Below, piece by piece: positions 19,414-50,497 of a DNA stretch of 50,684 nt. The position numbers were made by a program, and so were the translations under genes. The notes beneath the pieces are model-generated. The model was given only the letters and a program-made list of their open reading frames with translations. It ran no database searches and was not told the origin of the DNA. Each line of letters starts with the position of its first letter. Within the stretch, counting starts at the first letter, position 1. This DNA comes from Strigamia acuminata (lineage: Eukaryota; Arthropoda; Chilopoda; Geophilomorpha; Linotaeniidae): assembly GCA_949358305.1 (NCBI GenBank), contig CASHSZ010000050.1, positions 1 to 50,684 of the forward strand, read 5' to 3'.

Positions 19414-19419
19414 AATAAA
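19414..19419 (+). promoter_or_regulatory. Polyadenylation signal of gene 4
   Basis: AATAAA about 235 nt after the stop codon, followed about 30 nt later by a GT-rich stretch (GGTTGTTGTTGCGTGG), the usual downstream element pattern. Confidence 0.5.
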
Positions 19420-19439
19420 AAATAAATAAATAGATAAAC

Positions 19440-24290: not shown

Positions 24291-26150
24291 TAACTGAGAG
24301 AGTCGGGTGCGAGACCACGTGACCCGGAGTGTGGTTTTTGGGGGCGAGGGCCGTCCTCCGACCGCGCCGTGACGCGCCCCGGGTCGGATCAAGAGGCGAC
24401 CCGGTCGGAAACCGAACCTCGGGGTTCCTCGGGGCGTGGTTTTTTGGGGAGGGGGGGGGGGGGGGATTGGGTCGCGTGCTCCGACCGCGCCGCAACGCGC
24501 CGTGGGTCGGTCACCAACCTTTGTCAATATTTTATAAATTTCCACGGAATTTCAACAATGTTTTACATAAGTCCGTCAAATCGGGCAGAAATATCCCGTA
24601 CAATGTCGCTGCAATTCTGTGGAAATTTATCAGATATTGACAAAATTCGGTGACGGGCGGAAGGGCGATTCCCGGGCGGAAGAGAGAGAGAGAGAGAGAA
24701 AGGGGGGACGGCCGGCGCCTACGCCGACGGGGCGCGGAGGGCGAGTGCACTGTTCACGCATGTGGGCGCGTGTGGACGCTCGATTTACTGGCGCGTTGGA
24801 CAAGTCAAAAAAAATTTCCCAATGTCTGACAAAAATTCCATCGAATCACGGCAATATTTGACAACACTTGCACAGATTTTTAGCAACATTCACCGGCGAG
24901 GTCGTTGATGAACTCGCTTTACCCCGATGAATCTCGCGCGACAACAACCCTGCGAAAATACCAAATCTCGTACGAATAATAAACACGGCGCAAACCGCAC
25001 AAAAATCCACGACATAAAATCGAATGTCGTCTATCGGCACTCTCAGCATTCCCCCGGACATTTTCCGGAAGAGTTTGGTCCGGCCGGAATCCGAGGAATA
25101 GTCACTCCCAAAGTGCGGATTTTGCGGGTGCACTCGCTTCCGAAGGATAGGCAAAGCAGGCGTGCGGACGCGACGCCCGGACGCGGCCGGACGGGGACCA
25201 GTCGGCGCTTAACCTTGGGGTATGTGTGCGGATTTTGTCGGGGGCGAAAGGGTCCCGCTTTTTAACATTACGGCGGCCTATACGTTGTTTCGTTGATCGC
25301 GACTGTGATGCGGAATTTGCGGATGTTGTTTTGGCCGAGTAGTTCGTGCGACCGAGCGCGTTTTGTTCGTTGCTTTTCGGTGTTCGGTGGGTTTTGTGAC
25401 CGGTCAAGGGTTTCGCTAAAACGTGGTTTTTGTGACGGGAGGGAGGGGGGATCGGTTCATGTGCTCCGAACGCGCCGCGACGCGCCGTGACTTGGGCCAA
25501 AAACGACCCGGTCGGAAACCGGGTCCCGGGCTTCGTCGAGGCGTGGTTTTTGAGAACGGGGGGAGGGGGGGATCGGGTCGCGTGCTCCGAAAGCGCCGCG
25601 ACGCGCCGTGACTTGGGCCAAAAACGACCCGGTCGGAAACCGGGTCCCGGGCTTCGTCGAGGCGTGGTCCCGATCGGGACAAACTCTTCCGGAAAATGTC
25701 CGGTGGAATGTTGAGAGTGTCGATGGACGACGTTCGAGTTTATATCGTAAGTAAGTAAGTATCTGACAAAACTTGCACAGAATTTTGTCAACATTTGATA
25801 AATTTCCACAGAATTTAACGTTGTTTTGCTAAAACCTGCGGAAACGTGTCTAGTCGGGCAGAAACGTCTCGTAAAATGTTGCTGAAATTCCGTGGAAATT
25901 TGTCAAAAATTGACAAAAGTTGGTGACCGACCCACATCGCGTTGCGGCGCGGTCGGAGCACGCGACCCGATCCCCCCCCCCCCCCTCCCCCCGTCCCCAA
26001 AAAACCACGCCTCGAGGAACCCCGAGGTTCGGTTTCCGACCGGGTCGCCTCTTGATCCGACTCGGGGCGCGTCACGGCGCGGTCGGAGGACGGCCCTCGC
26101 CCCCAAAAACCACACTCCGGGTCACGTGGTCTCGCACCCGACTCTTTCAG
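24290..26150. repeat. Partly palindromic spacer between the two arrays
   Basis: The outer arms, 24303-24450 and 26000-26147, are inverted copies with only a few differences. They continue as a more diverged pair (24503-24655 and about 25770-25925) rich in GACAAA and TTTCCACGGAATTT motifs. A third inverted pair lies at about 25010-25082 and 25672-25750 (GGACATTTTCCGGAAGAG). The innermost ~600 bp has two direct ~125-bp repeats (about 25428-25552 and 25552-25675) with GACCCGGTCGGAAACCG, a motif also found in the outer arms. AG and G/C homopolymer runs occur at 24684-24705, 24448-24466 and 25971-25990. No gene is supported; the long open frames here are repeat artefacts. Confidence 0.75.
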
Positions 26151-29100
26151 TTTTCCCGTTTTCAGCCCGTTACGGGATCGTGACGGGACTGTCGGCGGCC
26201 CGTTAACGGCCCGCACGAGCCGTGACGGGATCGTGACGGGACCGTTGGCGGCCCGTTAACGGCCCGCACGGGCCGTGACGGGATCGTGACGGGACCGTCG
26301 GCGGCCCGTTAACGGCCCGTACGACTCCATGCGGGCCGTTGACGGGCCGTTGACGGGCCGTTAACGGGCCGTTAACGGGCCGTTACGGCGTAAATCGAAA
26401 AAATCAACAACCGACAACACGTACGTGAAAACGCGTACAACATTCATAGACATTAATCTCGAATCCTGTTTTTGGTTTTACGCCGTTAACGGGCCGTTAA
26501 CGGCCCGTTAACGGCCCGTTAACGGCCCGCGTGAGGTCGTACGGGCCGTCGGCGAGCCGAAGTCCGGGAACGAAGGCCGTGACGGGATCGTGACGGGACC
26601 GTCAGCGGCCCGTTAACGGCCCGTGCGGGCCGTTGCGGGATCGTGACGGGATCGTCGACGGCCCGTTAACGGCCCGTGCGGGCCGTTGCGGGCCGTTGAC
26701 GGGCCGTTGACGGGCCGTTAACGGGCCGTTAACGGGCCGTTACGGCGTGAATCGAAAAAATCAACAACCGACAACACGTACATGAAAACGCGTACAACAT
26801 TCATAGACATTAATCTCGAATCCTGTTTTCGGTTTTGCCCCGTTAACGGGCCGTTAACGGGCCGTTAACGGGCCGTTAACGGCCCGTGCGGGCCGTTGCG
26901 GGATCGTGACGGGACCGTCGACGGCCCGTTAACGGCCCGTGCGGGCCGTTGCGGGATCGTGACGGGACCGTCAGCGGCCCGTTAACGGCCCGTGCGGGCC
27001 GTTGCGGGATCGTGACGGGATCGTCGACGGCCCGTTAACGGCCCGTGCGGGCCGTTGCGGGATCGTGACGGGACCGTCAGCGGCCCGTTAACGGCCCGTG
27101 CGGGCCGTTGCGGGATCGTGACGGGATCGTCGACGGCCCGTTAACGGCCCGTGCGGGCCGTTGCGGGCCGTTGACGGGCCGTTGACGGGCCGTTAACGGG
27201 CCGTTAACGGGCCGTTACGGCGTGAATCGAAAAAATCAACAACCGACAACACGTACATGAAAACGCGTACAACATTCATAGACATTAATCTCGAATCCTG
27301 TTTTTGGTTTTACGCCGTTAACGGGCCGTTAACGGGCCGTTAACGGCCCGTTAACGGCCCGCGTGAGGTCGTACGGGCCGTCGGCGAGCCGAAGTCCGGG
27401 AACGAAGGCCGTGACGGGATCGTGACGGGACCGTCAGCGGCCCGTTAACGGCCCGTGCGGGCCGTTGCGGGATCGTGACGGGATCGTCGACGGCCCGTTA
27501 ACGGCCCGTGCGGGCCGTTGCGGGCCGTTGACGGGCCGTTGACGGGCCGTTAACGGGCCGTTAACGGGCCGTTACGGCGTAAATCGAAAAAATCAACAAC
27601 CGACAACACGTACGTGAAAACGCGTACAACATTCATAGACATTAATCTCGAATCCTGTTTTCGGTTTTGCCCCGTTAACGGGCCGTTAACGGGCCGTTAA
27701 CGGGCCGTTAACGGCCCGTGCGGGCCGTTGCGGGATCGTGACGGGACCGTCGACGGCCCGTTAACGGCCCGTGCGGGCCGTTGCGGGATCGTGACGGGAC
27801 CGTCAGCGGCCCGTTAACGGCCCGTGCGGGCCGTTGCGGGATCGTGACGGGATCGTCGACGGCCCGTTAACGGCCCGTGCGGGCCGTTGCGGGATCGTGA
27901 CGGGACCGTCAGCGGCCCGTTAACGGCCCGTGCGGGCCGTTGCGGGATCGTGACGGGATCGTCGACGGCCCGTTAACGGCCCGTGCGGGCCGTTGCGGGC
28001 CGTTGACGGGCCGTTGACGGGCCGTTAACGGGCCGTTAACGGGCCGTTACGGCGTGAATCGAAAAAATCAACAACCGACAACACGTACATGAAAACGCGT
28101 ACAACATTCATAGACATTAATCTCGAATCCTGTTTTTGGTTTTACGCCGTTAACGGGCCGTTAACGGGCCGTTAACGGCCCGTTAACGGCCCGCGTGAGG
28201 TCGTACGGGCCGTCGGCGAGCCGAAGTCCGGGAACGAAGGCCGTGACGGGATCGTGACGGGACCGTCAGCGGCCCGTTAACGGCCCGTGCGGGCCGTTGC
28301 GGGATCGTGACGGGATCGTCGACGGCCCGTTAACGGCCCGTGCGGGCCGTTGCGGGCCGTTGACGGGCCGTTGACGGGCCGTTAACGGGCCGTTAACGGG
28401 CCGTTACGGCGTAAATCGAAAAAATCAACAACCGACAACACGTACGTGAAAACGCGTACAACATTCATAGACATTAATCTCGAATCCTGTTTTTGGTTTT
28501 ACGCCGTTAACGGGCCGTTAACGGCCCGTTAACGGCCCGTTAACGGCCCGCACAGGCCGTGACGGGATCGTGACGGGACTGTCGGCGGCCCGTTAACGGC
28601 CCGCACGAGCCGTGACGGGATCGTGACGGGACCGTCGGCAGCCCGTTAACGGCCCGTACGACTCCATGCGGGCCGTTGACGGGATCGTGACGGGACCGTC
28701 GGCGGCCCGTTAACGGCCCGCACGAGCCGTGACGGGATCGTGACGGGACCGTCGGCAGCCCGTTAACGGCCCGCACGGGCCGTGACGGGATCGTGACGGG
28801 ACCGTTGGCGGCCCGTTAACGGCCCGCACGGGCCGTGACGGGATCGTGACGGGACCGTTGGCGGCCCGTTAACGGCCCGCACGCGCCGTGACGGGACCGT
28901 GACGGGACCGTCGGCGGCCCGTTAACGGCCCGTACGACTCCATGCGGGCCGTTGACGGGCCGTTAACGGGCCGTTAACGGGCCGTTAACGGCGTAAATCG
29001 AAAAAATCAACAACCGACAACACGTACGTGAAAACGCGTACAACATTCATAGACATTAATCTCGAATCCTGTTTTTGGTTTTACGCCGTTAACGGGCCGT

Positions 29101-29182
29101 TAACGGGCCGTTAACGGCCCGTTAACGGCCCGTTAACGGCCCGCGTGAGGTCGTACGGGCCGTCGGCGAGCCGAAGTCCGGG
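26150..29182 (-). repeat. TTAA-bearing terminal array, left side of copy B (inverted)
   Basis: The same repeat family as 19752-24290 but in the opposite orientation. Seven inverted copies of the AT-rich core lie near 26445, 26800, 27275, 27635, 28110, 28465 and 29045, with ~357/475-bp alternation over most of the array. It starts with degenerate palindromes after the spacer and stops abruptly at GTCCGGGAA, inside a unit, where a poly-A run begins. Together with 47745-50497 it gives copy B long inverted terminal arrays. Confidence 0.9.
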
Positions 29183-29207
29183 AAAAAAAAAAAAAAAAAA
29201 AAAAAAA
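29183..29207. repeat. Poly-A junction between array and gene block B
   Basis: An A homopolymer of about 25 nt joins the interrupted terminal array on its left to the middle of a SINE-like element on its right. The SINE sequence resumes at the base equivalent to 703 in copy A. In copy A the same SINE continues without a poly-A run. This could be a retroposition or repair scar, or an assembly join at a homopolymer. Confidence 0.8.
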
Positions 29208-29371
29208 CGTGTTTGACAATACAGCTTTGTCGGAAATGAAAAGTCGGCGGGAGCGGGACTCGAACTCTCGGTCACCAACTCCGTGCGGCAGGTCACCCTG
29301 CCCGCTCGGCCACCCGGGCCCGAAGATAAACCGTCCTCGTGGCCGTCTAGAATTTCGTCGCTTCGAATTTC
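29208..29371 (-). repeat. Truncated SINE-like element, copy B1
   Basis: Only the leader, the tRNA-like head and ~20 nt of body remain. The rest of the body and the 3' domain seen in A1 are replaced by the poly-A junction. Confidence 0.65.
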
Positions 29372-29540
29372 TTCCTTTTCTGTTTTAACCCAACTCGACT
29401 CGGCAGCCCCGTTCGAATCTCGGGGAGGAAAAAACAAAAAAAAAAAAGAAAAGAGAAAAAAAGAAAAGAAGAGAAGAGAAGAGAAAAAGAATAGAAATAA
29501 AAACAAAAATATGAACGAAAAAAATAAAAACAAAAGGAGA

Positions 29541-29796
29541 GCCGAATCTTCCGACTTCCCCCCACCCTCTCGCAACCTCGCGAGAGAGTGTGCCTCACTA
29601 TCTGAAGAGAAAGAATGGCGCACAACCGTGCAATAGACTCGACAATGTTAAGATAGATATGAGTGTTTCTGTGATACAGTTTTTGCCAGAAATGAAAAAT
29701 CGGCGGGAAGCGGGACTCGAACCCTCGGTCACCAGCTCCGTGCGGCAGGTCACCCTGCCCGCTCGGCCACTCGGGGCCGATGATAAAGCGCCGCCA
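29541..29796 (-). repeat. tRNA-headed SINE-like element, copy B2
   Basis: Counterpart of A2, with the same box A-like and box B-like motifs on the minus strand, upstream of gene 1 of copy B. Confidence 0.65.
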
Positions 29797-30099
29797 ATTT
29801 CAACGACAACGTTCGCCGTCGTTACCATTCATTCTCGCCGTTGTTAATCGTCGTTAATTAGTTACCGGTTATTAATTATTTTTTGTTTAATAATTATTAT
29901 TATTATTATTATTATTACTATTATTTATTTGTTCGTTCGTTTGCTCGTTTGTTTTTTATTTTTCGTGTCGTCAGCTGACGGACTGACTGACTGACTGACT
30001 GACTGACTGACTGACAGACAGACAGACAGTCGCATCCGCGAGAGAGGGTACACTTTTTCCGGCCACGCGGCAGATTTTTTCTCTCGACGCCATTTTCAG

Positions 30100-31674
<1,575 letters not shown>

Positions 31675-32002
31675 TTGATTGGTTGGCCGATCGAGCTAAT
31701 TAATTCACACGTTTTCGTTTCACTTGTCTGTTTTTGTTCGTTTTTATTGATTTGTTCGTTTGTTTTCTTTTTTTTCTTTTTCTTTGTCGGCATCGACAAT
31801 ACGTCGTCATTGTTGCCTTTGTTAATAAATAATAAAATTAACTTACAAAAAAAATGGAATAAATGAATAAATAAATAAATAAGCAAAACAAACAAAACTA
31901 CTCCGCCGCGTTCTGGCAAATGGAGGAATGAAATAAAACAAAATTAACCGGCCGGTTGGCCGCCCGAGCGTCGGCGCGCGCTCGGTCGTGGAAACGTCGC
32001 GG

Positions 32003-32727
32003 TCACTTGTCCGCGCCGGCCACGTGGATCTGAAAACAATCGCGACCGTGTTTCGGCCGGCACAGGTTGATTTCGCAGGGGACGCACCACCAACTGCTCT
32101 CGTGCCGTTCCTTGCGGCGCACGTAACACACCTTGCACCGCTTGCTCTTGGACGTGTGTTCGAGCCGGTGGACGACGGGTCCGCCGGGCGCGGGGGCCGC
32201 GCCCGGCACGGCCCCCTCCCGTCGAGACACGAGTTGGGTGGCGAGCGCTCTCCTGAACTGCAGCTGCGATCGGCCGCCTCGCGCGCCCGAGGTCGCCTCG
32301 AGCATATTGATTCGGGCGTTGACGCACACTGGAAGAAGAGAAGAGAAGAGAAGCGAGAATTAATTAGCGACGGATTAATCGGTGGCAAACGGCGCCCCGC
32401 TCACCTTGGTTCAGCTTGTGGAAGAAGAAGTACCGGTGCCAGTACGGGGAACGGCGCCCGATGCGGAACGAGGAGACCAGCCTGTTCAGCACGTCCACCC
32501 AGTGGAAATTGCGCGTGTACGAAAGCGCGGGCGCCGGGCAACGGACGTCCACCCTGTTGCCGCCGATGCGACGGGAGACGTGCCCGGGCGCCGCCAACGG
32601 GTCGACGTTCGTGCTGAGCAGACTCACGGTCGTCGTGTCCCTCCACCAGGTAAGCAACAGTCGGCCACTCTGACGATGCAGGAAATCGCCTATGAATAAA
32701 AAAGAAGTGAAATCAATCAATCAATCG

Positions 32728-32815
<88 letters not shown>

Positions 32816-34415
32816 GCCGACGATGCGAAGAGCGAGCGGGCGGTTTACCTCTCGCGTTGGCTCGGTACCGCTTGGGGTCCGGGAGGTCGGGCGGCATTTG
32901 GGCCGCGTTGGACCGCAGCGTCCCGACGGCCATTGTGTTGTGGCGGGCAAAGAGGTGCTCGAACAGCACGGCGGACGTGAATCGATTGTCGCACGCAATC
33001 GTGTGCCCTTTGCCGAGGTAGTGCCTGGCGACGTAGACGACGATGCGTCCGATGATGCTGCCCGGGTACCTGGAAACGAAAAAAAGAGAAAAGAAAAAGA
33101 AGGAATTGTGAGAACGAAGGAGAGAAACAGCGACGACGAAGTGACTCACTCTGGCTCCGGCTCCTCGTCCGGGTCGAAGAACATTTTGGCGCGTTTGCCG
33201 ATGTGCGCCTCGTCGTTCAGCACGTAGGCGGTGCCCGCGTCGCATAGTGTGAACAACTCGAAGCCCCATTTGATGGGCTTGGCCGGTTGACGGACCTGGG
33301 AAGAACGTTAAAGAAAGAAAGAAAGAAAGAAAGAAAGAACGAACGTTAGAGAAAAACGAGATCGGAGGGCGACCCCCGCACGCACCTTCATCTCCGATCG
33401 ACCCCGGTAGGCGATCATCGATTCGTCGACGCAGAGAGTTTGGCTGGGCTCGCGGCACGCGCGAAAGCGCTTGTTCACCAGATCGGCGAACAAACGGACT
33501 TTCGTCGTGCCGTCGTCTCGTTCGCGTTCCTTCAAGAACGCCGCCCTCTCTCCCGTCGTGCTGCCGCCGTCGGAGCCGGCCGCCGACCCGCCAACGCGCA
33601 GCCGCTGGTACGACGGCTGCGTGCTGTAGTGGAGATAACGCGAAACCTCTTCGAACCGTTGGCGCGTCATCGCTCGTCGGACGGCCGGCGCGCCGAGATC
33701 GCCGGGCCTGTCGCCCTGCCAGTAGTGGCGCAGTTCGGGCTGTCGGTTGTAACCGGTGAGCACGAGAATGCCCAGGTACGCGTACAGCTCGTCCAGCGCC
33801 AGGGGTCGAACCGGCCCACGTGCCCTCTGCCGAGGAAGAGGAGGAGGAGGAGGAGGAGGAGGAGGAGGAGGAGGAAGGGGAGGAAGGGCTAATTGTCGTC
33901 GAGCGGCCGCGTCGGCCGCCCCCCGGTCGCCCGCGGTGAGGCGCACCCTCAGGTCCGCGCACCGCGCCCCGGGTCGGGTGCCGCTGCCACCGGCAACGGC
34001 CACGACGCTCCCACCGGCAGCAGTCGTCGTCGTCGTCGCCGCCGTCGTTCGTCTGGACTTTGGACCTCGTGGCCGTGGCCGCGACGCGGCGAGCACCTAG
34101 AACGAAAACGAAAACGAAAACGAGCGTGAGAGTGAGTGTCGCGGATCGTCACCGTTGTTTTTTTCTCGGCACCTGCGCTCGCGCCATTTCCTCCTCTCTC
34201 GCCTCTCTCCGGATGGCTCGATTCGTCGCGGTCACGATGAAACGGGCCGCCTCGCCGAACAGCTCCTCGAAGTAATCGAACTCCGAGCTGCTCGGCACGC
34301 AGCGACCGCAGTAGCCGGGCGTCCCGCCGGCGAAACCGACGTCCTGCCGGTACGACGTCGTCGCGGCGACCCACACGCGCGCGCCCGCGTCCGTTTTGGG
34401 GAAACCGTCCGTCAT
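32003..34415 (-). CDS. piggyBac-family transposase (copy B)
   Basis: Exons 34415-34173, 34096-33386, 33295-33150, 33069-32849, 32689-32405 and 32328-32003 encode the same 643-aa protein as in copy A. It keeps the three catalytic Asp candidates (305, 394, 506), Asn509 and the complete Cys-rich C-terminal domain. Two intact identical transposase genes suggest recent amplification or gene conversion. The gene sits between gene 1, which converges on it, and the SINE cluster, as in copy A. Confidence 0.93.
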
Positions 34416-34882
34416 GGCTTAAACGAACGAACGAACGAACGGACGAAACGGTCGTTTAGCCAACCAATCAATTAATCAATTAATTGATTAATAAATTAAT
34501 AAACACGAACCGGGAAAGTTGGTCGGTCGGCTGGCTCGTCTTTCTTTATTGGTTTATTTCTCGTTTCTCGTTTCTTTTTCTTTCTTTTTCGACGATGGTG
34601 CGTGCGGATTGAATGACGCCGTCGAGCGGGGTCAAAGGTAGGAATGGGTGTTGTTTTGCTGCGGCGCAAACTCTGTAGAGCGGCACCTGACGACGCGGAC
34701 TGTATTTATAAAAACAAAACGAACCAAATAAATGAATGAATGAATGAATGAATGAATGAATGAATGAATGAATAAAAAGAGAGAAGAATGGAAAGAAATA
34801 AGTAAAAAAAATAAATAAAATAAAAAAGTGGAATGAAATAAAATAAAAGAACGAGAGGAGGGAGGTCGAATAAAATAAAGAA

Positions 34883-36015
34883 GGGCCGATACCTTCGACC
34901 CCCCCTCCCGCGGGTCTTGCGAGAGAGTAGTATTCATGAGAATGCGTTAGTAAAGTACTCATTTGTAACAAATCAATCATAGAAGAAGGGTTTCTGAGAA
35001 AACATCGGTGAAATGAAAAGTCGGCGGGAGCGGGACTCGAACTTTCGGTCCACGTCTCCGTGCGGCAGGTCACCCTACCCGCTCGGCCACCCGGGGCCGA
35101 AGATAAACCGCCCTCGTAGTGGCTTGGAATTGTGTCGGCCCCAATTCGAGTACTCTATTCTACTTCACTTTGGCCAAATGAACGAAAGAGAGACGCGAAT
35201 GAATAAATGAATAAATAGATAAATGGGTGGAAATAAAAAAAATAAATAGAAAAAAAAAAATAATGAAAATAAAGTGAAATAAAATAAAGAAGGGCCGATA
35301 CCTTCGACCCCCCCTCCCGCGGGTCTTGCGGGAGAGTATTGCCCATGAGAATGTATTAATAAACCACTAGTACGATAACGAGTAATTACGAAGAAAGAAA
35401 GAGATGTTACCGAATAATTTCGGAGAAACGGAAAGTCGGGAGAGCGGGACTCGAACTCTCGGTCACCAGCTCCGTGCGGTAGGTCACTCTACTCGCTCGG
35501 CCACCCGGGGCCGAAGATAAAGCGTCCTCGTGGTCGTCTAGAATTTCGTCGCTTCCGATTCGAGTATTCGTTTCATTTTGGCCGAACGAACGAGAGGAAA
35601 AGAGACGAAAGGAAGAAAAAAGAAAGAAAGAAAGAAAGAAATAAATAAATAAATAAATAAATAAACAAATAAATAAACAAATAAATAAACAGACGGGTAG
35701 ATAGGTAGGTGGAAATAAAATTAAAAATAGAATAAAATAAAATGAAATAAAATAAAGAAGGGCCGATACCTTCGACCCCCCCTCCCGCGAGTCTTGCGGA
35801 AGAGTAGTATTTTCAAGAACTTGTCACAGTATAATAAACCAACTAATACAAATCAATCATTCAATGTTGCCAACGAAAAGTCGGGGGAGAGCGGGACGCG
35901 AACCTTCGGTCACCAGCTCCGTGCGGCAGGTCACCCTGCCCGCTCGGCCACCCGGGGCCGAAGATAAAGCGTCTTCGTGGTCGTCTGGAATTTCGTCGCT
36001 TTCGGTTCGAGTGCT
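34883..36015 (-). repeat. SINE-like cluster in copy B (three copies)
   Basis: Counterparts of A3 (34883-35153), A4 (35291-35570) and A5 (35760-36015), head to tail on the minus strand and separated by A/T-rich microsatellites. No clear nucleotide difference from copy A was seen by eye. Confidence 0.7.
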
Positions 36016-36345: not shown

Positions 36346-36428
<83 letters not shown>

Positions 36429-37240: not shown

Positions 37241-37282
<42 letters not shown>

Positions 37283-38855
37283 TAAACTACCGCAGTTTGG
37301 AGCAGAGGGGTTCGTCGCGACAACCGCTGCAGACAAAACCTTCGCTTCGGCCGAGTCGTTTGGTCCACGGCCGCCCCACGCACTCTTCGTGCACCGAGCA
37401 TAAACACTCGGAGCATTTGATCCGCGGGTCGGCCACCCCGAGACAGTAGATACTGTCGCAACCGGTTGCCTTGGAGCCAGCGGCACCACTCCGATCGTGG
37501 CGATACAGGGACGTCTGAAATTTGAAACGAGCGAATTTGTGAACGGATACGAGAAAGAAAGAAAGAAAGAAAGAAAGAAAAACGAGACAATACGGGACGA
37601 GATTTTTCGTTTCTTACCTTGAACGGTTGCGAAAACGGCCGCGAAGAAGATGACCGCGACTGCGACCACGACTGCGACTGCGACTCCTTCGATCGCGACT
37701 CCTTCGATCGCGACTCCTTCGACTGCGACCGCGACCGCGACTGCGATCGCGACCGCGACCGCGACTGCGACTGCGACCGCGACTGCGACTGCGACCGCGA
37801 TTGCGACCGCGACCGCGACCGCGACCGCGACCCGGTGCCGCGACTGTGCCCGGGCGAGGGCTCGTGTTCGGCGTGTTCGAGTTCGAACTCACTTTCTCGC
37901 CGACGCTGTATCTCGCGACTCTGTGCGCGGATCATTTGGCCTTCGCACTCTACCTTCGCGCGGTTCTTCTTGCGGACTTCGCGGCGAGCGCGTTCCTCAT
38001 CATCGTCGTCGTCGCGGACGAGCGGGATGCCGGGTACCCGACTACGCACGAAAGTGAAGCCGCGTACGGTGATGGGATCGCGCGAGAGGTCGACGTCGTA
38101 TTCTCGGAACTTGCTGGTGGCACCGGCACCGGCACCACGATCGGGGCGGGCGCCGGTGAAGAGGTCGGCACCACTGTCCTCGGCGCCGTCGTCGTCGCCG
38201 CCGCTGCTGCTGCTGCTGTTGCTATTGTCGTCTGCACGTTTAATGGATCCGGCGTGTTTAGCGGCAACAACAGTAGATTTGGCGCGTTGCTCGGTGGTGG
38301 GTTTGGCACGTTGCTCGGCGGCGGATTTGGCGCGTTGCTCGGCGGCGGATTTGGCGCGTTGCTCGGCGGCGGATTTGGCGCGTTGCTCGGCGGCGGATTT
38401 GGCGCGTTGCTCGGCGGCGGATTTGGCGCGTTGCTCGGCGGCGGATTTGGCGCGTTGCTCGGCGGCGGATTTGGCGCGTTGCTCGGCGGCGGATTTGGCG
38501 CGTTGCTCGGCGGCGGATTTGGCGCGTTGCTCGGCGATGCGAAGAGCAGTTGCAGCAGCGGGGGCAATGCGAAAGGTACCAGCGAGAGGAGAGGGACGCG
38601 GGGAAGGGAAAGAAGCGGGCATGGAAAACAAGCCCCTGACTTTGTCCTTTCCGAAGAGGAGATCCAGCACCGGGCGTTGTTGCACCATGTCGATGGCTTC
38701 CTGAAAAAGAAAACGAACGAGTCAATTCGATCGATAGATTGATCGAGTCCTCGACGCGAGTCAGTCACGCACGTTCGACATCCACTTCGTGTACCCTTCC
38801 TTCATCAGGTCCAAGTTGCTTTGTTCTACTGGGATGACTACCTGTGTGTGTGTGT

Positions 38856-38929
<74 letters not shown>

Positions 38930-40245
38930 GTGAGTGAATAAAAAATTAAAATAATCAATGAACGAACGAATAAACCGAGGCGTTTTTCTTTCACCTTCTT
39001 TTCTGCCTCGCCCTTTCGTCGTTTCGGTTGATCCGGGACACGTTGCGGCGCCGGGCGTTTCGGCGCCGGTAGTTTCGGTTCGTCGCATCCCCTTTGGTCG
39101 ATGCTCGACCTTATCGTCGCGATCGGTACGTAAAATTTATGTTTCGTCCAAAGATGTTGCCTCAGGTCATCCGGCTGCGTGTCGCACAAAGGGCAGTCGG
39201 ACGCGTGCTCCGTCGTCGAAAACAGTTCCTGTCGGGTAAAAAAAACAAAAAAAACAAAAACATACGATTTGTTCAGCGACGACACCGAGAGACCGCGCGA
39301 GGAAACACATGCATACATACGTACCTGGCAAAAGCCGTCGAATGTGCCGATGTGGCCGCGCAGCAATTGCCTGGCCGCCTCAAAGTCTCTGGCTACGGTG
39401 TGCACACTCCGCCAGTGATCGCCAATGTCCTTGAGTGGGCCAGCCGGTTTCCATCCGCCCCCATCGCCGTCGTCGTCGTCGCCGTCGCCGTCGTCGTCGT
39501 CGTAGGCGTAGTTCGCGCGCTTCCTGCGGCACAGCCAACACATCCCCACCCTGCTGTGAACGGGCTTGTCCTGAACGAAGAAGAAGAAGAAGAAGAAGAA
39601 GAAGAAGAAGAAAAAACGAGTGAATCGACGACACGGGCGGGCGCCGTTGCTCACCTTCGCAGAGTCGTAGGAGCCAAAGTCTGTTTGTTGCGACTGCGAC
39701 CCGCTGGGAGGGACTGGGAGCATCGCCTCGAGAGCCCCCAGTCTTTCGCCGTGGTTGGCGAGGTTCGACCTCAATTCTTCCAGTTCAACTTCCAGGGTGT
39801 TGATCTTGGCTTGCATGGCTTCGACCTCGCGCCCCGTTGCCCCGTCACCGCCGCTGTTGCCGTCGTTGGCTTCGTTGCCGCCGTTGCCGTTGTCGCCGCC
39901 ACCGCCGTTGTTGCCATTGCCATTGTCGCTGTCGTCGTCGTTGTCGCTGTCGAGTCGTCTATCGAAAAACGAAAACGAATGTAAATGGTATCCCGCACGA
40001 ACCCGGTCGCGCCGTGGTACTTACATTGGACGGGGTTTGCGTACACCTTCCAATCCGGACAACGTGCTCGGAAACGACTGGCTGGCGCCCGGGTCCGCGC
40101 TCTCGGTTCCCGCTGTTCCGTTCGGCGACGACAAAACGTGCACCACCTCCTCGGCGCCTGTTTCCGCGTGGGTCTCCGTGACACCTCCGCCCTCGGGGTT
40201 CACTCCCGTCCGTTCTTCGCCCACTCCTCGTTGCTCGTCGTCCAT
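36687..40245 (-). CDS. Gene 3 (copy B): zinc-finger, RS-domain and PHD-finger protein
   Basis: Exons 40245-40025, 39958-39655, 39570-39325, 39228-38995, 38841-38773, 38700-37618, 37514-37291, 37189-37006 and 36935-36687 encode 937 aa. Compared with copy A it has 16 extra residues from two 24-bp repeat units and one residue fewer in the Asp-rich loop of the first zinc motif. Scattered substitutions occur, such as R to H and A to V near the first Cys pair and Y to N in exon 5. All zinc-ligand Cys and His residues and all splice sites are kept. The differences are in frame, which supports the gene model, although several change the amino acid. Confidence 0.75.
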
Positions 40246-40274
40246 TTTCGTCGATCAATCGCCTACTTATAAAC

Positions 40275-41475
40275 GAATTGGTCGTTTAATCAATTAATTG
40301 GTTAATTCATTAGACCGATTAACGGACGAACGGACGGACAAATAATAGCGCCGCGAGTAGTAACCACAAAACCAACGTTGAATCTAGTCGTTTGATATCG
40401 ACGGGGTTTCCCCCCTCCTCCGTGCTCACGCACGCTGTCCCGCATGGCACGCCGTTTTTATTCGCCCGTTCCGTTTCTTCTCTCGTTTGTTTGTTTTTTT
40501 TTTAAGAAATAATGCGATTGGATAGCCTTACTTACTCGTTTGTTCGTTTTTTTTTTGTTTGTTTGTTTGTTTGTTTTTCCCACTCTACGGAGTCCAGCGA
40601 ACCGATATATGTACGCGTGTGCGTCGCGAAGAAGGAGAAGGGCACAACAATGGCGGGAAAAAGCTTGATCCGCTGTTCACCTCGATGTCACGGCGCTGCG
40701 ACGCGACGCTCGGCGATGCGAATTAAAAAGAAAAAATGAAACAAAATAAAACAAAGTGAAACAATAAAATGAAACGAAACGAAACAAAATAAAATGAAAC
40801 GAATAAACGATCGGCGTTTTGAATCGTGCCGCGTCATGTTGCCCGGTTGCGCCACCAGGTGCCCGCGCAGCGCTCGGCGCTCGGTGTTCGGTGTTCGGCC
40901 CGTCCCGTGAACGGGGAGGAGAAGAACGAAGCGGGGACTACGGGTTCGGGTTAGGCGCCGACGGCGTGGTTGATCGATTATATTTTCTCGCTTTCTATTT
41001 ATCTTCTCGTAAGAGTTGTAAAGGCGTATAAAGAATAAACAATTGGAGCGAAAAGTAAACGGTCTTTTTATTTGTGTACATTTGTAAAATTTGAAAATTT
41101 TTCTTAAAACTAAGCGTGAATAAACGAGCGAAAAAAATGAGGCGGGCTCGCGCGACGGGCGACGGGTCTAGTTGTCGCATTAGTCGGTCCTGGTCGAGGA
41201 GCAGTCTGTCTGTCCTTAACGGTCAAAATGAGAATGGCACCGAAGAGACTCCGTACATTATTCGATGTGAAATCTGAAATCTGAAATCTGAAATCTGAAA
41301 TCTGAAAAATCTGAAAAACCTGAAAAACCTGGGACCCGTGAAAACCCGAAATCTGAAAACCGATTGATTGGTCGGTCGATCAATCAATCGATCGATCGAT
41401 CGGTGGACGGTTGGCTGCCTGCCCCACCCACCCGCGACGATTGGCCCCACCGGCCGGCGGTGGCCCATTCTCGAC
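40275..41475. other. Spacer between gene 3 and the tandem array, copy B
   Basis: Counterpart of 11655-12870 with small indels: a shorter T run, fewer AATCTGAAA units, and short deletions near 40910 and 41015. No gene is supported. Confidence 0.6.
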
Positions 41476-44400
41476 TTATTTATTTATTATTTTGACCGGC
41501 CCGAAGGCCAGTCTGAGACCGAAAAAGCACGGCTGCTTTTACAGAGACGGGTATCAAATACCGCGCCGCTCGGCGGGTACTGTGCGCCGCTCGACCGAGC
41601 GGCGGGCCCGAGTCCCGAGTTCGATCTGAAAGTGTTGGCAAAACCCATCGAACGTGTTCGGGAAGACTCCCGTCCACAACGACGGCGCGAGACCCCCGGA
41701 AGATGAAAATAAAATACGAAACGGCTCATTTTCTATAAAATTTTTATTCCAACGAATTACGACGAAGATAACCTAATTAACGGTTAAAGCACGGACCGCA
41801 AAGTCGGTCCCACGACCGAAGAATTAAAATTTTAATCGTCTTTCTTTTTTCGTGTGATATTTTTTTTACCTCGTACCGATCGCCACATCGGACACGAGTA
41901 GAATGCACGCGACCGCACGCATGCTGCGAGGTTTAGACGGTCGAAGGAATGCCGGTAAGGGAGCTTATTTTCGGGGCGAGTCGTCGGGGCTGCCGCTGCC
42001 GCCGCTGTCGCTCAACGACCCCAACCGCATCTATTCGTCGGGACGGATACGTTCCATTTTCGGACTTATTTATTTATTTATTTATTTATTATTTTGACCG
42101 GCCCGAAGGCCAGTCTGAGACCGTGGCGAAGCAAGGGTCCTTTTATATCGGATACCGCGCCGCTCGGCGGGTACTGTGCGCCGCTCGACCGAGCGGCGGG
42201 CCCGAGTCCCGAGTTCGATCTGAAAGTGTTGGCAAAACCCATCGAACGTGTTCGGGAAGACTCCCGTCCACAACGACGGCGCGAGACCCCCGGAAGATGA
42301 AAATAAAATACGAAACGGCTCATTTTCTATAAAATTTTTATTCCAACGAATTACGACGAAGATAACCTAATTAACGGTTAAAGTACGAACCGCAAAGTCG
42401 GTGCCACGACCGGAGAATTAAAATTTTAATCGTCTTCCTTTCTCTGATGATCTTTTTTTTTTTTACTCCGTACCGATCGCCACGTCGGACACGAGTAGAA
42501 TGCACGCGACCGCACGAGCGCTGCGAGGTTTGAACGAACAAACGGATGCCAGCGCAGGACCTTATTTTCGGGGCGATTCGTCCGGGCTGTCGCTGCCGCT
42601 GACGCCGCTCAACGACACCACCTGCCCCTATTCTGGCCGGGACGGGGACGTTCTATTTCCGATTTATTCATTTATTTGTTATTTTGACCGGCCCGAAGGC
42701 CAGTCTGAGACCGAGACCCACCGACCGACCATTGGATGGTAGGCGACTCGACCAACAGAAAATGGCGACGAACATTTTAGGAGACGGAACCACACCAACG
42801 ACCGACCGGCCATTTGGTACTCAACAGGTACTCCAGTCTCGATCTGAAAAACGTCCGCAATGTCTATCGGATGCGATGACCGGGACTCGCATCGACTGCG
42901 ACGGTACACGGTCCCTGGGAAATGATTTAAAAATGTAAAACGACGATTATTTTGTAAAACTTTTATTCGAATCTGCCACAACGAAGATAACCTAATTAAC
43001 GGTTAAAGCACAAACCGCAAAGTCGGTGCCACGACTGGAGAATTAAAATTTTAATCGTCTTCCTTTCTCTGATGATCTTTTTTTTTTTACTCCGTACCGA
43101 TCGCCACGTCGGACACGAGTAGAATGCACGCGACCGCACGAGCGCTGCGAGGTTTGAACGAACGAACGGATGCCGGCGCAGGACCTTATTTTCGGGGCGA
43201 GTTAGTCGTCGGGGCTGTCGCTGCCGCTGACGTCGCTGCCGCTGACGTCGCTCAACGACGCCACCCACCCTTATTCTCGCCGGGACGGGTGCGACCTATT
43301 TCCGATCCATTTATTTATTTATTTATTTATTTATTATTTTGACCGGCCCGAAGGCCAGTCTGAGACCGAGACCGCTCTCGGAGACCCGTCGACAAAATCA
43401 CTGGCTGGAGCGTGCATCGGACCGACGACCGATAAACGGATGGGTGAAAAAATGCCAGTGGTCCGCACCGATCGTCGGGGCGTGAATGTCGACCTCTCAC
43501 ATCGGTCTCGATCCGAAAGCACTCACGGGGTCAATTGAACGCACCGAAGGCGACTGCCATCGAATACGACGGCGCAAGACCCCCGGGAGGTGAAAATAAA
43601 ATGCGGAGCGGCGGGTTTCCTATAAAATTTTTATTGCGATAAAGTGCGACGAAGATAACCTAATTAACGGTTAAAACGCAAACCACAAAGTCGGTTCCAC
43701 GACCGGAGAATTAAAATTTTAATCGTCTTTCCTTTTTCGGGTGATCTATGCCGATCGCCACATCGGACACGAGTAGAATGCACGCGACCGCACGCGCACT
43801 GCGAGGTTTAGACGAGCAAACGGATGCCGGCGCGGGAGCTTATCTTTTGCGACGAGTCGTCGGGGTTGCCGCTGCCACCACCACCGCCACCGTCCAGCGA
43901 CCCCAACCGCCTTTATTCGCCGACTCGTTTATTTATTTATTTATTTATTTATTTGTTTATTTTTTTTGACCGGCCCGAAGGCCGGTCTGAGACCGAGAGG
44001 TGCTCTCGACAAAGATGTGTCCACCGTTGGATGCAAGAACTCGGGTACCGCGCCACTCGACGGGTACTGCGCCGCTCGGACGAGCCACGGCCCCTCGTTC
44101 CGCTGGCGATCTGGAAACTCCCACAAAGTCCGTCGAACGCATCGAGCGAGACTCGCTCCGATTATGACGGCGCAAGACCCCCGAAAGATGAAAATGAAAT
44201 ACGGAAATGTCAATTTTCCGTAAAAATTTTATTCCGATAAATTGCGACGACGATAATCTAATTAACGATTAAAGCACGAACCGCGAAGTCGGTTCCACAA
44301 CCGGAGAATTAAAATTTTAATCGTCTTTCTTTTTCGTGTGATATTTTTTTTACCTCGTACCGGTCGCTACATCGGACACGAGTAGAATGCACGCGACCGC

Positions 44401-44563
44401 ACGCGCTGCGAGGATTAGACGGACGAAGGACGCACGAAGGGATGCCGACGCGGGACTTTATTTTCGGGGCGAGTCATCGAGGTTGCCGCTGCCGCCGCCA
44501 CTCACTCGACGACCCCAGCTGCCACTATTCGCCGGGACGAACGCGTTCTATTTCCCGACCTAC

Positions 44564-44614
<51 letters not shown>

Positions 44615-45615
44615 TTCATTTATTTATTTATTTATTTATTTTGACCGACCCGAAGGCCAGTCTGAGACCGACGAAGCAAGGGAGGTTTAAAAAAGACGGG
44701 TATCGGATACCGTGCCGCTCGGCGGGTACTGGCGCCGCTCGACCGAGCGACGGGCCCGAGTTCCGCATTCGATCTGAAAGTGTCGGCAAAACCCATCGAA
44801 CGTGTTCGGGAAGACTCCCGTCCACAACGACGGCGCGAGACCCCCGGAAGATGAAAATAAAATACGAAACGGCTGATTTTCTGTGAAATTTTTATTACGA
44901 CGAGTTGCGACGAAGATAACCTAATTAACGGTTAAAGCACGAACCGCAAAGTCGGTTCCACGACCGGAGAATTAAAACTTTAATCGTCTTTCTTTTTCGG
45001 GTGATCTTTTTTTTACTCTGTACCGATCGCCACACCGGACACGAGTAGAATGCACGCGACCGCACGCGCTGCGAGGTTTAGACGGACGAAGGAATGCTGG
45101 TGCGGGAGCTTATTTTCGGGGCGAGTCGTCGGGGCTACCGCCGCCGCTGCCGCCGCTCAACGACGCCACCCGCCCCTAGTCTCGCCGGGACGGGGGCGTT
45201 CTATTTTCGATTTATTCATTTATTTGTTATTTTGACCGGCCCGAAGGCCAGTCCGAGACCGTGACGAAGCAAGGGAGTTATTTGATCGGATACCGCGCCG
45301 CTCGGCGGGTACTGGCGCCGCTCGGCGGGTACTGGCGCCGCTCGACCGAGCGGCGGGCCCGAGTTCCGCGTCCGATCTGAAAGCATTCGCGAAGCCCGTC
45401 GAACGTGTTCGGGAAGACTCCCGTCCACAACGACGACGCGAGACCCTCGGAAGATGAAAATAAAATACGATACGGCCGATTTTCTATAAAATTTTTATCC
45501 CGATAAGTCACGACGAAGATAATCCAATTAACCGTTAAAGCACGGGTCGCGGAGTCGATTCCACGACCGGGGAATCAAATTTCGACTGTCTGTCTTCCCC
45601 CGTTACCCGTTTTTT
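41475..45615. repeat. Tandem array of seven constant/variable units (copy B)
   Basis: Hairpin markers lie at 41494, 42096, 42686, 43341, 43968, 44643 and 45234. The unit matching the fifth of copy A is missing. The join lies in the constant block around 43680-43750, as expected for unequal exchange between neighbouring units. The variable segments of the remaining units match their A counterparts. The last unit has a ~21-bp tandem duplication of the GGCGGGTACTGGCGCCGCTC segment, and the TTTA tract before the sixth unit is longer. Confidence 0.85.
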
Positions 45616-45940
45616 AATTCCGAGCGATGTCCGGCGCGCGCCCGTTCGCTCCCTCCCTCTACCCGGAATAGACAGACGCGAGAACGGAGCAAAATCTCTG
45701 ACCTCGGCCCGTCCCGCCGCTAGTTTATTTATTTTCGACTTATTTATTTATTTATTTATTTATTTATCTATTTATTATTTTGTTTGTTTATTTAATTATT
45801 CTATTTCATTTTATTTTTTTAATGAATTATTATTATTATTGTTGTTTAGCTAGAAGTATGCTACGTCGCGTGTCATTATCGCCATTGTTATCACCGGGCG
45901 TCGCGTCGGTTCATTCGCCAAAATCAGACAGACAGACACA

Positions 45941-47173
45941 ATGGACGCGACACGCGCTTCGCACACGGAGGTAAATTATTAAACCATTACTTGTAAAATG
46001 TTATTTTGTCAATTGGCCGCGTTCGCGTTTTGCGTGCGCAGAATGCACGAACTCACCGAGTTACTCGCGTAAACGTTAGCGTCGCCGTTGTTCTCGTCGC
46101 TAGACGAAACGACCAATTTGACGAATGGACGAACGAGTTTAACGAATTTGATAAAACTTAACGAGTGGACGAGATTAACGAATGAATGAATAAATAAAAA
46201 AAAATAAAGAAATAAATAGGCGTTTGTTTCGGGGCAATTCGTATAGTGCAACGAGTCGTGCGGTGAAACTATAGCGCCCCCCTCTCGCTCGTCCTTCGGT
46301 CTCTTTTCCTCACCTCCACCCCTTCTTCTTTCGGTTTTACCGCGCTCGCGCTTCGATTTAATTCAATTTAATTTAATTTATTCCTTCTCTACAGATGCCG
46401 ATCGAAAACGAGAGCGAGAGTGGGAGCGAGAACGAGGCGCTGACGCAGCTGCAGCCGCCGCAGTCGCAGCTACCGTCGCAACCACCGTCACCGGGGACGT
46501 CGGAGACGCCGACGCAGCCACAGTCGCCGGAGACGCAGCGAACGGTAAAGCGTCCCGGGGAAGCGGGCGATCCGGCGCCAACCAAAAAGGTATCCCGTCA
46601 AGATTGTCGTCGTTCATTCGTCTATTCATTCGCCTATTCCCCCTCCATTTTCCAGCCGCGTCAAGACGGAGAATCGTCGCCAGCGCGCGTCGTCGCCTCG
46701 TCGTCGAGCGACGCCGTCCCATCTACGTCGTCCGCCGCTCCCTTGTCGGGCGGGCTGGAGGCTCCGGCAAAGACAGTGGCGGAGGAGGGAGAGGGCGAAG
46801 AAGGAGGAGAGGGAGGAGAAGGAGAAGAAGAGGAAGAAGAAGAAGATGAAGAGGAAGAGGAGGAAGAGAGCGACGACCGAGACGTCGCCGATGGAGTCGA
46901 GTTGCTCCCGGCTGGAGGCCCCGTGTTCTCGCGTTTGGCGTTGGACGCGCACCGCGCTATAGTTAGAATGCTGATGCGCATGGTGAGTGAGTCAGTCGGT
47001 GGAAAACGTTCACCGTGCATGTACGCACCTTTTTTTCCCCGTATTTCGACAAACATTCGTTTTTTTTTTTTTTTTTTTTTTTTTAGCCGCCACCCAACAC
47101 TGGTGGCTCCTCCGACGCACCGGCGGTTACCCGCGAGTCGAAGAAACGGGACAGTGAGCGAATTCTCCACTAA
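45941..47173 (+). CDS. Gene 4 (copy B): acidic Pro/Gln/Ser-rich protein
   Basis: Exons 45941-45970, 46395-46589, 46656-46982 and 47087-47173 encode the same 212-aa protein as copy A. The length of the poly-T tract before the last exon is also unchanged. The alternative 3' end described for copy A exists here too. Function unknown; the nearest downstream feature is the TTAA array at the right end. Confidence 0.5.
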
Positions 47174-47744
47174 GCGCCTCTTCGAATACTCATCTTTTCT
47201 TCTCTCATTTCAGAATAGATGGATAGGCAGATAAAGGCGACATCGAGGATCGAAACGGCCAATATTTCATTTTATTTCATTTCATTTCATCTTTATTTTA
47301 TTTTATTTTATTTTATTTTATTTTATTTTTTTATGTATTCGATTTGTTTATTAATTTGTTTGTTTGTTTTCATTTGTTTTCATCGATTCGTTTAAAATGC
47401 TAGACGAATAAAAAATAAATAAATAGATAAACGAACTCGGTTGTTGTTGCGTGGCTTCTTTAAGCGAGCTCGGGGTTGCCTCGCACGCACGAGGGGCGCA
47501 CCGGTAGTTACTTCCGTGGTGTTGCGCCGTGCACACCGTGCGCCGACGGTAGTTTGCGCGCATTGTCTGTCGCGCGACCCACTCGGTCTATCGGTACGGA
47601 GGCATCGTCGTGGTTCGTATTTTGGAGCGGCCGTGTCTGGCCTCGAGAGGGAGAGGAGGGGGAGGAGGAGGAGGGAGGGGAGACGGTGACAAATATTTAT
47701 TTTGAAACAAATTACCGGGACTACCGGCGCTCGTTGGCGCCCGT

Positions 47745-50497
47745 TGTCCCGTACGGGCCGTTAACGGGCCGCACGAGGTTGGCGAGGCCGCCGCACGGGC
47801 CGCCGACGGTCCCGTAACGACCCCGTTAACGGCCCGTGCGGGCCGTTAACGGGCCGCCGACGGTCCCGTCACGATCCCGTAACGGCCCGTACAAGCCGTT
47901 AACGGGCCGCCGACGGTCCCGTCACGATCCCGTCACGGCCCGTGCGGGCCGTTAACGGGCCGCCAACGGTCCCGTCACGATCCCGTCACGGCTCGTGCGG
48001 GCCGTTAACGGGCCGCCGACGGTCCCGTCACGATCCCGTCACGGCCCGTGCGGGCCGTTAACGGGCTGCCGACGGTCCCGTCACGATCCCGTCAACGGCC
48101 CGCATGGAATCGTACGGGCCGTTAACGGGCCGCCGACGGTCCCGTCACGGTCCCGTCACGATCCCGTAACGGCCCGTACAAGCCGTTAACGGGCCGCCGA
48201 CGGTCCCGTCACGATCCCGTCACGGCCCGTGCGGGCCGTTAACGGGCCGCCGACGGTCCCGTCACGATCCCGTCACGGCCCGTGCGGGCCGTTAACGGGC
48301 CGCCGACGGTCCCGTCACGATCCCGTCACGGCCCGTGCGGGCCGTTAACGGGCCGCCGACGGTCCCGTCACGATCCCGTCACGGCCCGTGCGGGCCGTTA
48401 ACGGGCCGCCGACGGTCCCGTCACGATCCCGTCACGGCCTGTGCGGGCCGTTAACGGGCCGTTAACGGGCCGTTAACGGGCCGTTAACGGCCCGTTAACG
48501 GCGTAAAACCAAAAACAGGATTCGAGATTAATGTCTATGAATGTTGTACGCGTTTTCACGTACGTGTTGTCGGTTGTTGATTTTTTCGATTCACGCCGTA
48601 ACGGCCCGTTAACGGCCCGTTAACGGCCCGTCAACGGCCCGTCAACGGCCCGCAACGGCCCGCACGGGCCGTTAACGGGCCGTCGACGATCCCGTCACGA
48701 TCCCGCAACGGCCCGCACGGGCCGTTAACGGGCCGCTGACGGTCCCGTCACGATCCCGTCACGGCCTTCGTTCCCGGACTTCGGCTCGCCGACGGCCCGT
48801 ACGACCTCACGCGGGCCGTTAACGGGCCGTTAACGGCCCGTTAACGGCCCGTTAACGGCGTAAAACCAAAAACAGGATTCGAGATTAATGTCTATGAATG
48901 TTGTACGCGTTTTCATGTACGTGTTGTCGGTTGTTGATTTTTTCGATTCACGCCGTAACGGCCCGTTAACGGCCCGTTAACGGCCCGTCAACGGCCCGTC
49001 AACGGCCCGCAACGGCCCGCACGGGCCGTTAACGGGCCGTCGACGATCCCGTCACGATCCCGCAACGGCCCGCACGGGCCGTTGACGGGCCGCTGACGGT
49101 CCCGTCACGATCCCGCAACGGCCCGCACGGGCCGTTAACGGGCCGTCGACGATCCCGTCACGATCCCGCAACGGCCCGCACGGGCCGTTAACGGGCCGCT
49201 GACGGTCCCGTCACGATCCCGCAACGGCCCGCACGGGCCGTTAACGGGCCGTCGACGGTCCCGTCACGATCCCGCAACGGCCCGCACGGGCCGTTAACGG
49301 CCCGTTAACGGCCCGTTAACGGCCCGTTAACGGGGCAAAACCGAAAACAGGATTCGAGATTAATGTCTATGAATGTTGTACGCGTTTTCACGTACGTGTT
49401 GTCGGTTGTTGATTTTTTCGATTTACGCCGTAACGGCCCGTTAACGGCCCGTTAACGGCCCGTCAACGGCCCGTCAACGGCCCGCAACGGCCCGCACGGG
49501 CCGTTAACGGGCCGTCGACGATCCCGTCACGATCCCGCAACGGCCCGCACGGGCCGTTAACGGGCCGCTGACGGTCCCGTCACGATCCCGTCACGGCCTT
49601 CGTTCCCGGACTTCGGCTCGCCGACGGCCCGTACGACCTCACGCGGGCCGTTAACGGGCCGTTAACGGCCCGTTAACGGCCCGTTAACGGCGTAAAACCA
49701 AAAACAGGATTCGAGATTAATGTCTATGAATGTTGTACGCGTTTTCACGTACGTGTTGTCGGTTGTTGATTTTTTCGATTCACGCCGTAACGGCCCGTTA
49801 ACGGCCCGTTAACGGCCCGTCAACGGCCCGTCAACGGCCCGCAACGGCCCGCACGGGCCGTTAACGGGCCGTCGACGATCCCGTCACGATCCCGCAACGG
49901 CCCGCACGGGCCGTTAACGGGCCGCTGACGGTCCCGTCACGATCCCGCAACGGCCCGCACGGGCCGTTAACGGGCCGTCGACGATCCCGTCACGATCCCG
50001 CAACGGCCCGCACGGGCCGTTAACGGGCCGCTGACGGTCCCGTCACGATCCCGCAACGGCCCGCACGGGCCGTTAACGGGCCGTCGACGGTCCCGTCACG
50101 ATCCCGCAACGGCCCGCACGGGCCGTTAACGGCCCGTTAACGGCCCGTTAACGGCCCGTTAACGGGGCAAAACCGAAAACAGGATTCGAGATTAATGTCT
50201 ATGAATGTTGTACGCGTTTTCACGTACGTGTTGTCGGTTGTTGATTTTTTCGATTTACGCCGTAACGGCCCGTTAACGGCCCGTTAACGGCCCGTCAACG
50301 GCCCGTCAACGGCCCGCAACGGCCCGCACGGGCCGTTAACGGGCCGTCGACGATCCCGTCACGATCCCGCAACGGCCCGCACGGGCCGTTAACGGGCCGC
50401 TGACGGTCCCGTCACGATCCCGTCACGGCCTTCGTTCCCGGACTTCGGCTCGCCGACGGCCCGTACGACCTCACGCGGGCCGTTAACGGGCCGTTAA
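47745..50497 (+). repeat. TTAA-bearing terminal array, right end of copy B
   Basis: Same family and orientation as 19752-24290 but shorter. AT-rich cores lie near 48520, 48875, 49350, 49705 and 50180, with clean ~355/475-bp alternation. The first ~750 bp consists of simpler palindrome units without the core and lacks ~46 bp present in copy A. The array ends in the middle of a unit at GGGCCGTTAA, immediately followed by AT-rich unique DNA. Confidence 0.9.
50494..50497. other. TTAA at the right boundary, candidate target site
   Basis: The last four bases of the repeat-like sequence are TTAA. In other copies of this unit the TTAA is followed by CGGCCCGTTAACGG; here it is followed by TGTTAGAC. 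PiggyBac-family insertions duplicate TTAA at both ends. The matching left TTAA cannot be fixed within this window. Confidence 0.6.

Follow-up and report, generated by a model that had tools for sequence, protein, structure and literature searches.

Two adjacent copies of a large element

The stretch analysed here, referred to as the window, comprises 50,684 nucleotides from the centipede Strigamia acuminata (GCA_949358305.1, contig CASHSZ010000050.1). It is the entire contig C61 of the 237.5-Mb, 157-contig assembly that was searched as the host genome; C1, C4 and similar labels denote other contigs of the same assembly. The window holds two adjacent, incomplete copies, A and B, of a giant piggyBac-type element, which carries a transposase gene, several further genes, a cassette array and GC-rich arrays (Table 1). 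Neither copy is full length, since A is without its left part and B without its right end. Copy A closes at 25146 with ...CTTCCGAAGG, and copy B opens at 25213, where the sequence reads TTAA-CCTTGGGG... (full left-terminus string CCTTGGGGTATGTGTGCGG).

The transposase gene has six predicted exons encoding 643 aa without a stop, the splice sites of all window genes being predicted by eye. An identical coding sequence lies 28,505 bp upstream in copy A. The protein matches the Pfam family DDE_Tnp_1_7 at 2e-56 and, among solved structures, matches the sequences of Trichoplusia piggyBac (6x67, E 7.7e-18) and piggyBat (9c0f, E 6.7e-13). An earlier note on this DNA, made from the sequence alone, had described an intact six-exon piggyBac transposase, and this description stands. 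The protein was aligned with 11 of the 13 proteins returned by a search, the two weakest being dropped. D305, D394 and D506, which we take to be the catalytic aspartates, are invariant across these 12 sequences, as is the Cys/His tail formed by C600, C603, H611, C617, C620, C625, C633 and H637. A Cys-rich C-terminal domain is a feature of the piggyBac superfamily. The six relatives examined have continuous frames, the search method favouring proteins of this kind, and no relative was confirmed among the contigs of IMG/VR and GTDB, which are viral or prokaryotic collections.

The block shared by the two copies is repeated in direct orientation, from 703 in A and from 29208 in B. Over A 703-19754, no mismatch occurs in the kilobase blocks below 9000 or from 15000 onwards; all 60 mismatches fall between 9000 and 15000, and there are 18 indels, the largest being 654 bp of the cassette array that B lacks. 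The mismatches form a single patch (9000-15000 against 38000-44000), and the gene-3 segment of B is identical to that of a copy on C22; a gene-conversion event, recombination among subtypes or a switch in the assembly may account for this. The left array of B runs through about 25 A into the middle of a tRNA-derived short interspersed nuclear element (SINE). The same SINE is complete in A, and B has therefore lost internal sequence. Ten heads of such SINEs, five per copy and all on the minus strand, are found at 774-1263, 6551-7444, 29279-29768 and 35056-35949. A tRNA scan and an Rfam scan of the window gave no matches, and the SINE-head pattern was not found in the viral contigs searched.

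Termini, genomic copies and empty sites

To locate the ends of the element, the DNA surrounding four further copies was fetched and compared. On the right side, three of these (c1, c12 and c8) stop where copy A does, at the equivalent of 25146 or four bases further on (a common ATAG), and the DNA beyond differs; in the fourth, an assembly gap breaks the right side. Two other copies revealed the left end, TTAA-CCTTGGGGTATGTGTGCGG, which is the same as at 25209 in the window. The right-end 20-mer has 191 exact occurrences in the genome (reversed-pattern control, 0). The left-end 19-mer occurs 238 times, 224 of them directly after TTAA (controls, 0), these being counts of termini, internal and tandem ones included, rather than of independent insertions. 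Both termini begin with CCYT (CCTTGGGG... and CCTTCGGA...), and the element reads TTAA-CCTTGGGG... on the left and ...CCGAAGG-TTAA on the right. Members of the piggyBac superfamily target TTAA and have termini starting with CCYT and terminal inverted repeats of 12-19 bp, according to the available parts of two reports (PMC10175614, PMC5601938).

Among 18 sampled right ends, mostly isolated ones, the next four bases are TTAA in 11, TTAT in 2, ATAG in 4 and ATAT in 1; of five sampled outer left flanks, four end in TTAA and one in ATAT. TTAA on both sides, which the earlier note had proposed to look for, is thus found at most left termini and at the majority of sampled right termini. On C1-C4, TTAA comes next at 24 of 72 right ends, and a tandem junction with the window's right-to-left spacing at 34 of 72. 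The GC content is 37.2% in 16 right-end flanks (two tandem ones omitted), 53% in the gene part and 64% in the right array of copy A; such a contrast (element 53-64%, sampled flanks 37%) would fit a recent arrival from another species.

Two side observations concern the ends. At L035, L037, C8:1569514 and C12:5703908 unrelated DNA begins after an ATAG that adjoins the right end and equals the opening four bases of the window's spacer; these bases may be donor flank that copies took with them when leaving a tandem. Furthermore, a related terminus, ...CCAATCCGCGAAAAGG-TTAA, adjoins a copy on C8 (L025 ~5859, C8:1535859) at the point where similarity to the C1 copy stops. It belongs to a second family of similar elements, a member of which was perhaps inserted there at a TTAA of the main element.

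The host assembly, where the earlier note had suggested searching, contains many other copies in which the transposase is accompanied by genes 3 and 4. The marker searches scored 116 of 346 candidates for the transposase, 40 of 86 for gene 4, 40 of 158 for the left gene and 40 of 101 for gene 3; as these lists cover part of the candidates, the absence of a marker from a copy is weak evidence. The window-type transposase exon was found at no fewer than 52 places among the candidates scored. Ends were paired on C1-C4, where the listed ends are complete. An inward left end on the same strand lies within 75 kb of 55 of the 72 right ends, against 6 of 72 in the wrong-strand control, and the pairs measure 3.3 to 71.9 kb. 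Fifteen pairs have TTAA on both sides, the left end being part of a tandem junction in five of these. Twelve pairs are at least 39 kb long (up to 72 kb): nine contain the transposase, all nine together with gene 4 and eight with the left gene, and two contain gene 4 and the left gene only, among the listed markers. At least two left termini occur in 10 of the 12, and an internal second left terminus with TTAA was seen inside large copies at C1:7257580, C5:13843168, C2:65130 and C3:5087812. On C137 and C74, two transposase exons are separated by 49.7 kb and 49.0 kb, respectively, consistent with a basic unit of about 50 kb. Gene-bearing copies with both ends measure 39-72 kb on C1-C4 and 47.8 kb on C5, and are therefore larger than the unit 26150-50497 of the earlier note. 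Complete copies are found, for example, at C5:13803874-13851627 and C2:56221-105481.

The genome also contains short derivatives, about 3.3-17.5 kb on C1 and C4, arranged head to tail (C1:57578267-57629894, C4:3450187-3527266, C6:15716969-15766605). Their junction is constant, namely right end, 62 bp, TTAA and left end (on C6 from the right-end list only), which suggests that the tandems trace back to a single ancestral junction and were multiplied by recombination or by joint transposition. A second group of piggyBac exons occupies 43 near-identical places (75.8-bit type), many with stops on read-through, as with introns, and is possibly the transposase of a related element family. Loci L001, L002 and L003 each hold a piggyBac copy; the three score equally, have open frames of 528-632 aa and differ in type from the window transposase.

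Two large copies could be compared with empty sites. The C5 copy (13803874-13851627; 47,754 bp) carries, in the order seen in the window, gene 4, gene 3, exon 2 of the transposase and the left gene. When its two flanks are joined with a single TTAA between them, they match a 140-bp satellite that runs without interruption in locus L008; of the 10 matches there, 8 cross the junction, and 6 of those 8 are gap-free at 94-98%. The C1 copy (7199702-7269179; 69,478 bp) contains the same four genes plus nested insertions, such as a copia element. With its joined flanks as query (40 of 161 candidates scored), all 39 other listed places span the junction at 83-91%; the match to the C1 copy itself does not start until base 25. 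A single TTAA is present at both empty sites. Large gene-bearing copies thus lie within host repeats that are uninterrupted elsewhere, and the block therefore inserts as one unit. The earlier suggestion that the whole unit moves together is thereby supported, with insertion at TTAA; as for the empty sites it had hoped for, two were obtained, both paralogous sites in the same assembly and neither allelic.

Arrays, boundaries and other genes

Rather than forming the ends of the element, the GC-rich arrays are inverted domains in subterminal position. Positions 26508-28550 and 48455-50497 are inverted and 100% complementary over 2043 nt, and the inverted terminal arrays of the earlier note are thus inverted but not terminal. 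The same note had taken copy B to be a complete unit from 26150 to a TTAA at 50497. The right flank of A (24201-24652) and the left flank of B (26228-25776) are 83% similar in inverted orientation, and this similarity continues about 380 bp past the array edge; 26150 is therefore no terminus, only an internal array start, and the true left terminus is 25213. On the other side, the 187 bp to the right of 50497 were searched in the genome (40 of 192 candidates scored), and the 40 listed places comprise 19 same-strand pairs 5,925-5,927 bp apart, one single place and the window itself. Because of this pairing the 187-bp sequence is a long terminal repeat (LTR), and an LTR retrotransposon breaks the right array of B there; the TTAA at 50497 is among the 66 that this 2,757-bp array contains. 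Flank similarity, the junction of the SINE deletion and the LTR rule out 26150 and 50497 as termini, and with both edges wrong, an internal deletion and the LTR interruption, copy B is not a complete unit. A small piggyBac within the unit was likewise rejected: scanning for TTAA with 16-bp inverted partners gave three pairs per copy, AT-rich and of low complexity. The cassette-like array was described correctly and has units of about 0.6 kb. A check for structure in the cassettes gave no support, with 60 predicted pairs, 6 changed on both sides and a covariation term of +0.64.

The further intron-bearing genes of the earlier note hold for gene 3, with nine predicted exons; genes 2 and 4 are borne out as open frames only. 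The Cys/His clusters of gene 3 were seen by eye, and its PHD-like matches are all below cut-off. The fold prediction for the PHD-like exon had a mean predicted local distance difference test (pLDDT) score of 43.7 and was not used. A search with the last 198 residues returned 394 candidates, which had to match whole-protein length, and none at E<=0.001. A paralogous frame of gene 2 is found in the C1 copy (locus L029), together with other frames with Cys/His clusters, again by eye. The region of gene 4 (46300-47250) has 40 listed genome copies, from 40 of 86 candidates scored.

Viral genes were sought in the window genes and in the left part of the C1 copy as far as it is readable; this part overlaps the window slightly and contains 127 open frames of at least 75 aa after a complexity filter, 20 of which were scanned. 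No viral hallmark was found in the window genes or in these 20 frames, part of the element reading as N; the statement that nothing viral is seen is thus upheld within the readable part that was scanned. The sole strong match among the scanned frames is the inserted copia retrotransposon, and the matches below cut-off included Zn_ribbon_11 (0.00024) and Adeno_E3_CR2 (E 0.007; 16.6 bits, cut-off 36). The copia retrotransposon, at L013:116-7000, has a 1696-aa frame with a match to a methyl-CpG-binding domain above cut-off.

Table 1. Coordinates of features in the window.
Feature	Position	Strand	Remarks
Copy A	1..25146	+	left part beyond contig; right terminus ...GGTGCACTCGCTTCCGAAGG at 25146
Transposase gene, copy A	3498..5910	-	same sequence as in copy B
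Gene 3, copy A	8183..11624	-	922 aa
Right subterminal GC-rich array, copy A	19745..24274	+	109 TTAA
Tandem-junction spacer	25147..25208		62 bp; first bases ATAG
TTAA preceding left terminus of copy B	25209..25212		
Copy B	25213..50684	+	internally deleted; right end beyond contig; LTR retrotransposon interrupts from 50498
Left subterminal array, copy B	26164..29182	-	inverted relative to right arrays; 77 TTAA
Gene 2 open frame, copy B	30426..31622	+	coiled-coil-like; Glu-Pro repeats
piggyBac transposase gene, copy B	32003..34415	-	exons 34415-34173, 34096-33386, 33295-33150, 33069-32849, 32689-32405, 32328-32003
Gene 3, copy B	36687..40245	-	937 aa encoded by 9 predicted exons; Cys/His clusters; sub-threshold PHD-like match
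Cassette array, copy B	41476..45582	+	~0.6-kb units; 654-bp stretch fewer than in copy A
Gene 4 open frame, copy B	46377..47234	+	acidic protein
Right subterminal array, copy B	47741..50497	+	66 TTAA; cut at 50497 by LTR retrotransposon
LTR part of inserted LTR retrotransposon	50498..50684	+	foreign to the element; paired genome places

Interpretation and comparison with known systems

We read the element as a giant multi-gene DNA transposon of the piggyBac superfamily, whose short termini are recognised by a transposase of the three-aspartate (DDD) type and which is excised and inserted whole at TTAA, and we give this a probability of about 0.92. A DDD transposase, most likely the element's own, would recognise the TTAA-CCTTGGGG... 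and ...CCGAAGG-TTAA ends, cut out the whole unit at its TTAA-bounded ends and insert it at another TTAA. The moved unit would be about 48-50 kb without nested insertions and up to about 70 kb with them. The shorter derivatives without transposase, present in many copies, were probably moved in trans. At a guess, the arrays might provide multiple binding sites or a platform, and genes 2-4 might encode DNA-binding helpers.

Several points weigh against this reading. ATAG or ATAT instead of TTAA follows 5 of the 18 sampled right ends, one of the five outer left flanks is without TTAA, and the terminal inverted repeat is imperfect, with agreement at 11 of the first 17 bases. A TTAA-bounded pair of 61.6 kb on C3 has none of the three gene markers, and 7 of the 16 transposase places listed on C1-C4 lie outside any recognised pair. 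Both empty sites are paralogous, not allelic. The codon differences between the A and B versions of gene 3 (7 synonymous, 13 nonsynonymous) give no clear sign of selection.

The unit may be mobile while the transposase of another piggyBac family acts on it in trans, the window gene being a passenger. The 43 near-identical places of the other piggyBac group, the intact single-frame piggyBacs in the genome and the related terminus with TTAA beside the C8 copy would accord with this. We nevertheless consider it unlikely, as 9 of the 12 TTAA-type pairs on C1-C4 that reach at least 39 kb enclose the intact transposase. The window transposase is probably the acting enzyme and may still be active.

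It is quite improbable that the element, like Teratorn, is a fusion of virus and transposon whose viral genes lie in the stretch reading as N, despite the similar scale, the long inverted end regions and the internal extra terminus copies, the last of which are reported for Teratorn (available part of PMC5601938). Against it stand the absence of viral hallmarks from the window genes and the 20 of 127 listed left-part frames, the copia element as the only strong frame match, and an Adeno_E3_CR2 score far below cut-off. An ordinary small piggyBac gene lying by chance in a satellite-rich segmental duplication, the block itself not transposing, would match the near-identical direct copies A and B and the satellite-like tandem clusters of short derivatives, but is very hard to credit in view of fixed termini with TTAA in unrelated flanks, same-strand pairing far above control (55/72 against 6/72), no small TTAA-bounded element detected around the transposase, and the two paralogous empty sites of the 47.8- and 69.5-kb units, which contradict it.

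Beyond the transposon reading itself, one tentative proposal, to which we give somewhat less than even odds, is that of a virus-independent giant piggyBac lineage, perhaps with several families, in which the element's own intron-bearing zinc-finger-like and coiled-coil proteins, together with TTAA-bearing arrays, allow 50-70 kb to be moved, and self-insertion gives rise to tandems and satellites. If no virus lies in the unread part, a DDD cut-and-paste transposase would move a multi-gene block of 50-70 kb without a viral partner. This bears on large gene-carrying transposons in eukaryotes outside fungi, on the load limits of piggyBac and on the origin of satellites from transposon copies.

Canonical piggyBac elements are a few kb long and have one gene; in this superfamily the TTAA target is duplicated on insertion, and excision is seamless, leaving a restored TTAA. 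The centipede element resembles them (6x67, piggyBat 9c0f) in its related transposase sequence, TTAA and CCTT ends, and differs in its size, about 20 times greater, and in having several genes as well as subterminal arrays. Fungal Starships, which use a tyrosine recombinase, are alike in scale and in that a large multi-gene block is moved by one recombinase; no kinship is claimed. Coral CMITEs, as portrayed in the accessible part of their description, are small non-coding piggyBac-related elements that form tandem arrays (PMC2872659), whereas the tandems here also include gene-bearing copies. Teratorn is the giant piggyBac element that turned up in the literature, the search being incomplete, and a similar element may already be in print. 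In the available portions of the reports, it is a piggyBac-herpesvirus fusion of medaka and other teleosts (PMC5601938, PMC10175614, PMC6431247), 180 kb in medaka and 41-182 kb across fish (PMC6431247). As far as these portions go, the two share a piggyBac-type transposase, TTAA targets, CCYT ends, a length of at least tens of kb, additional genes, long inverted regions and internal copies of a terminus. They differ in that Teratorn carries herpesvirus genes, none of which was found in the part of the centipede element read, in that the extra genes here have introns and fall into no recognised family, and in size, 180 kb in medaka against about 50-70 kb in the centipede.

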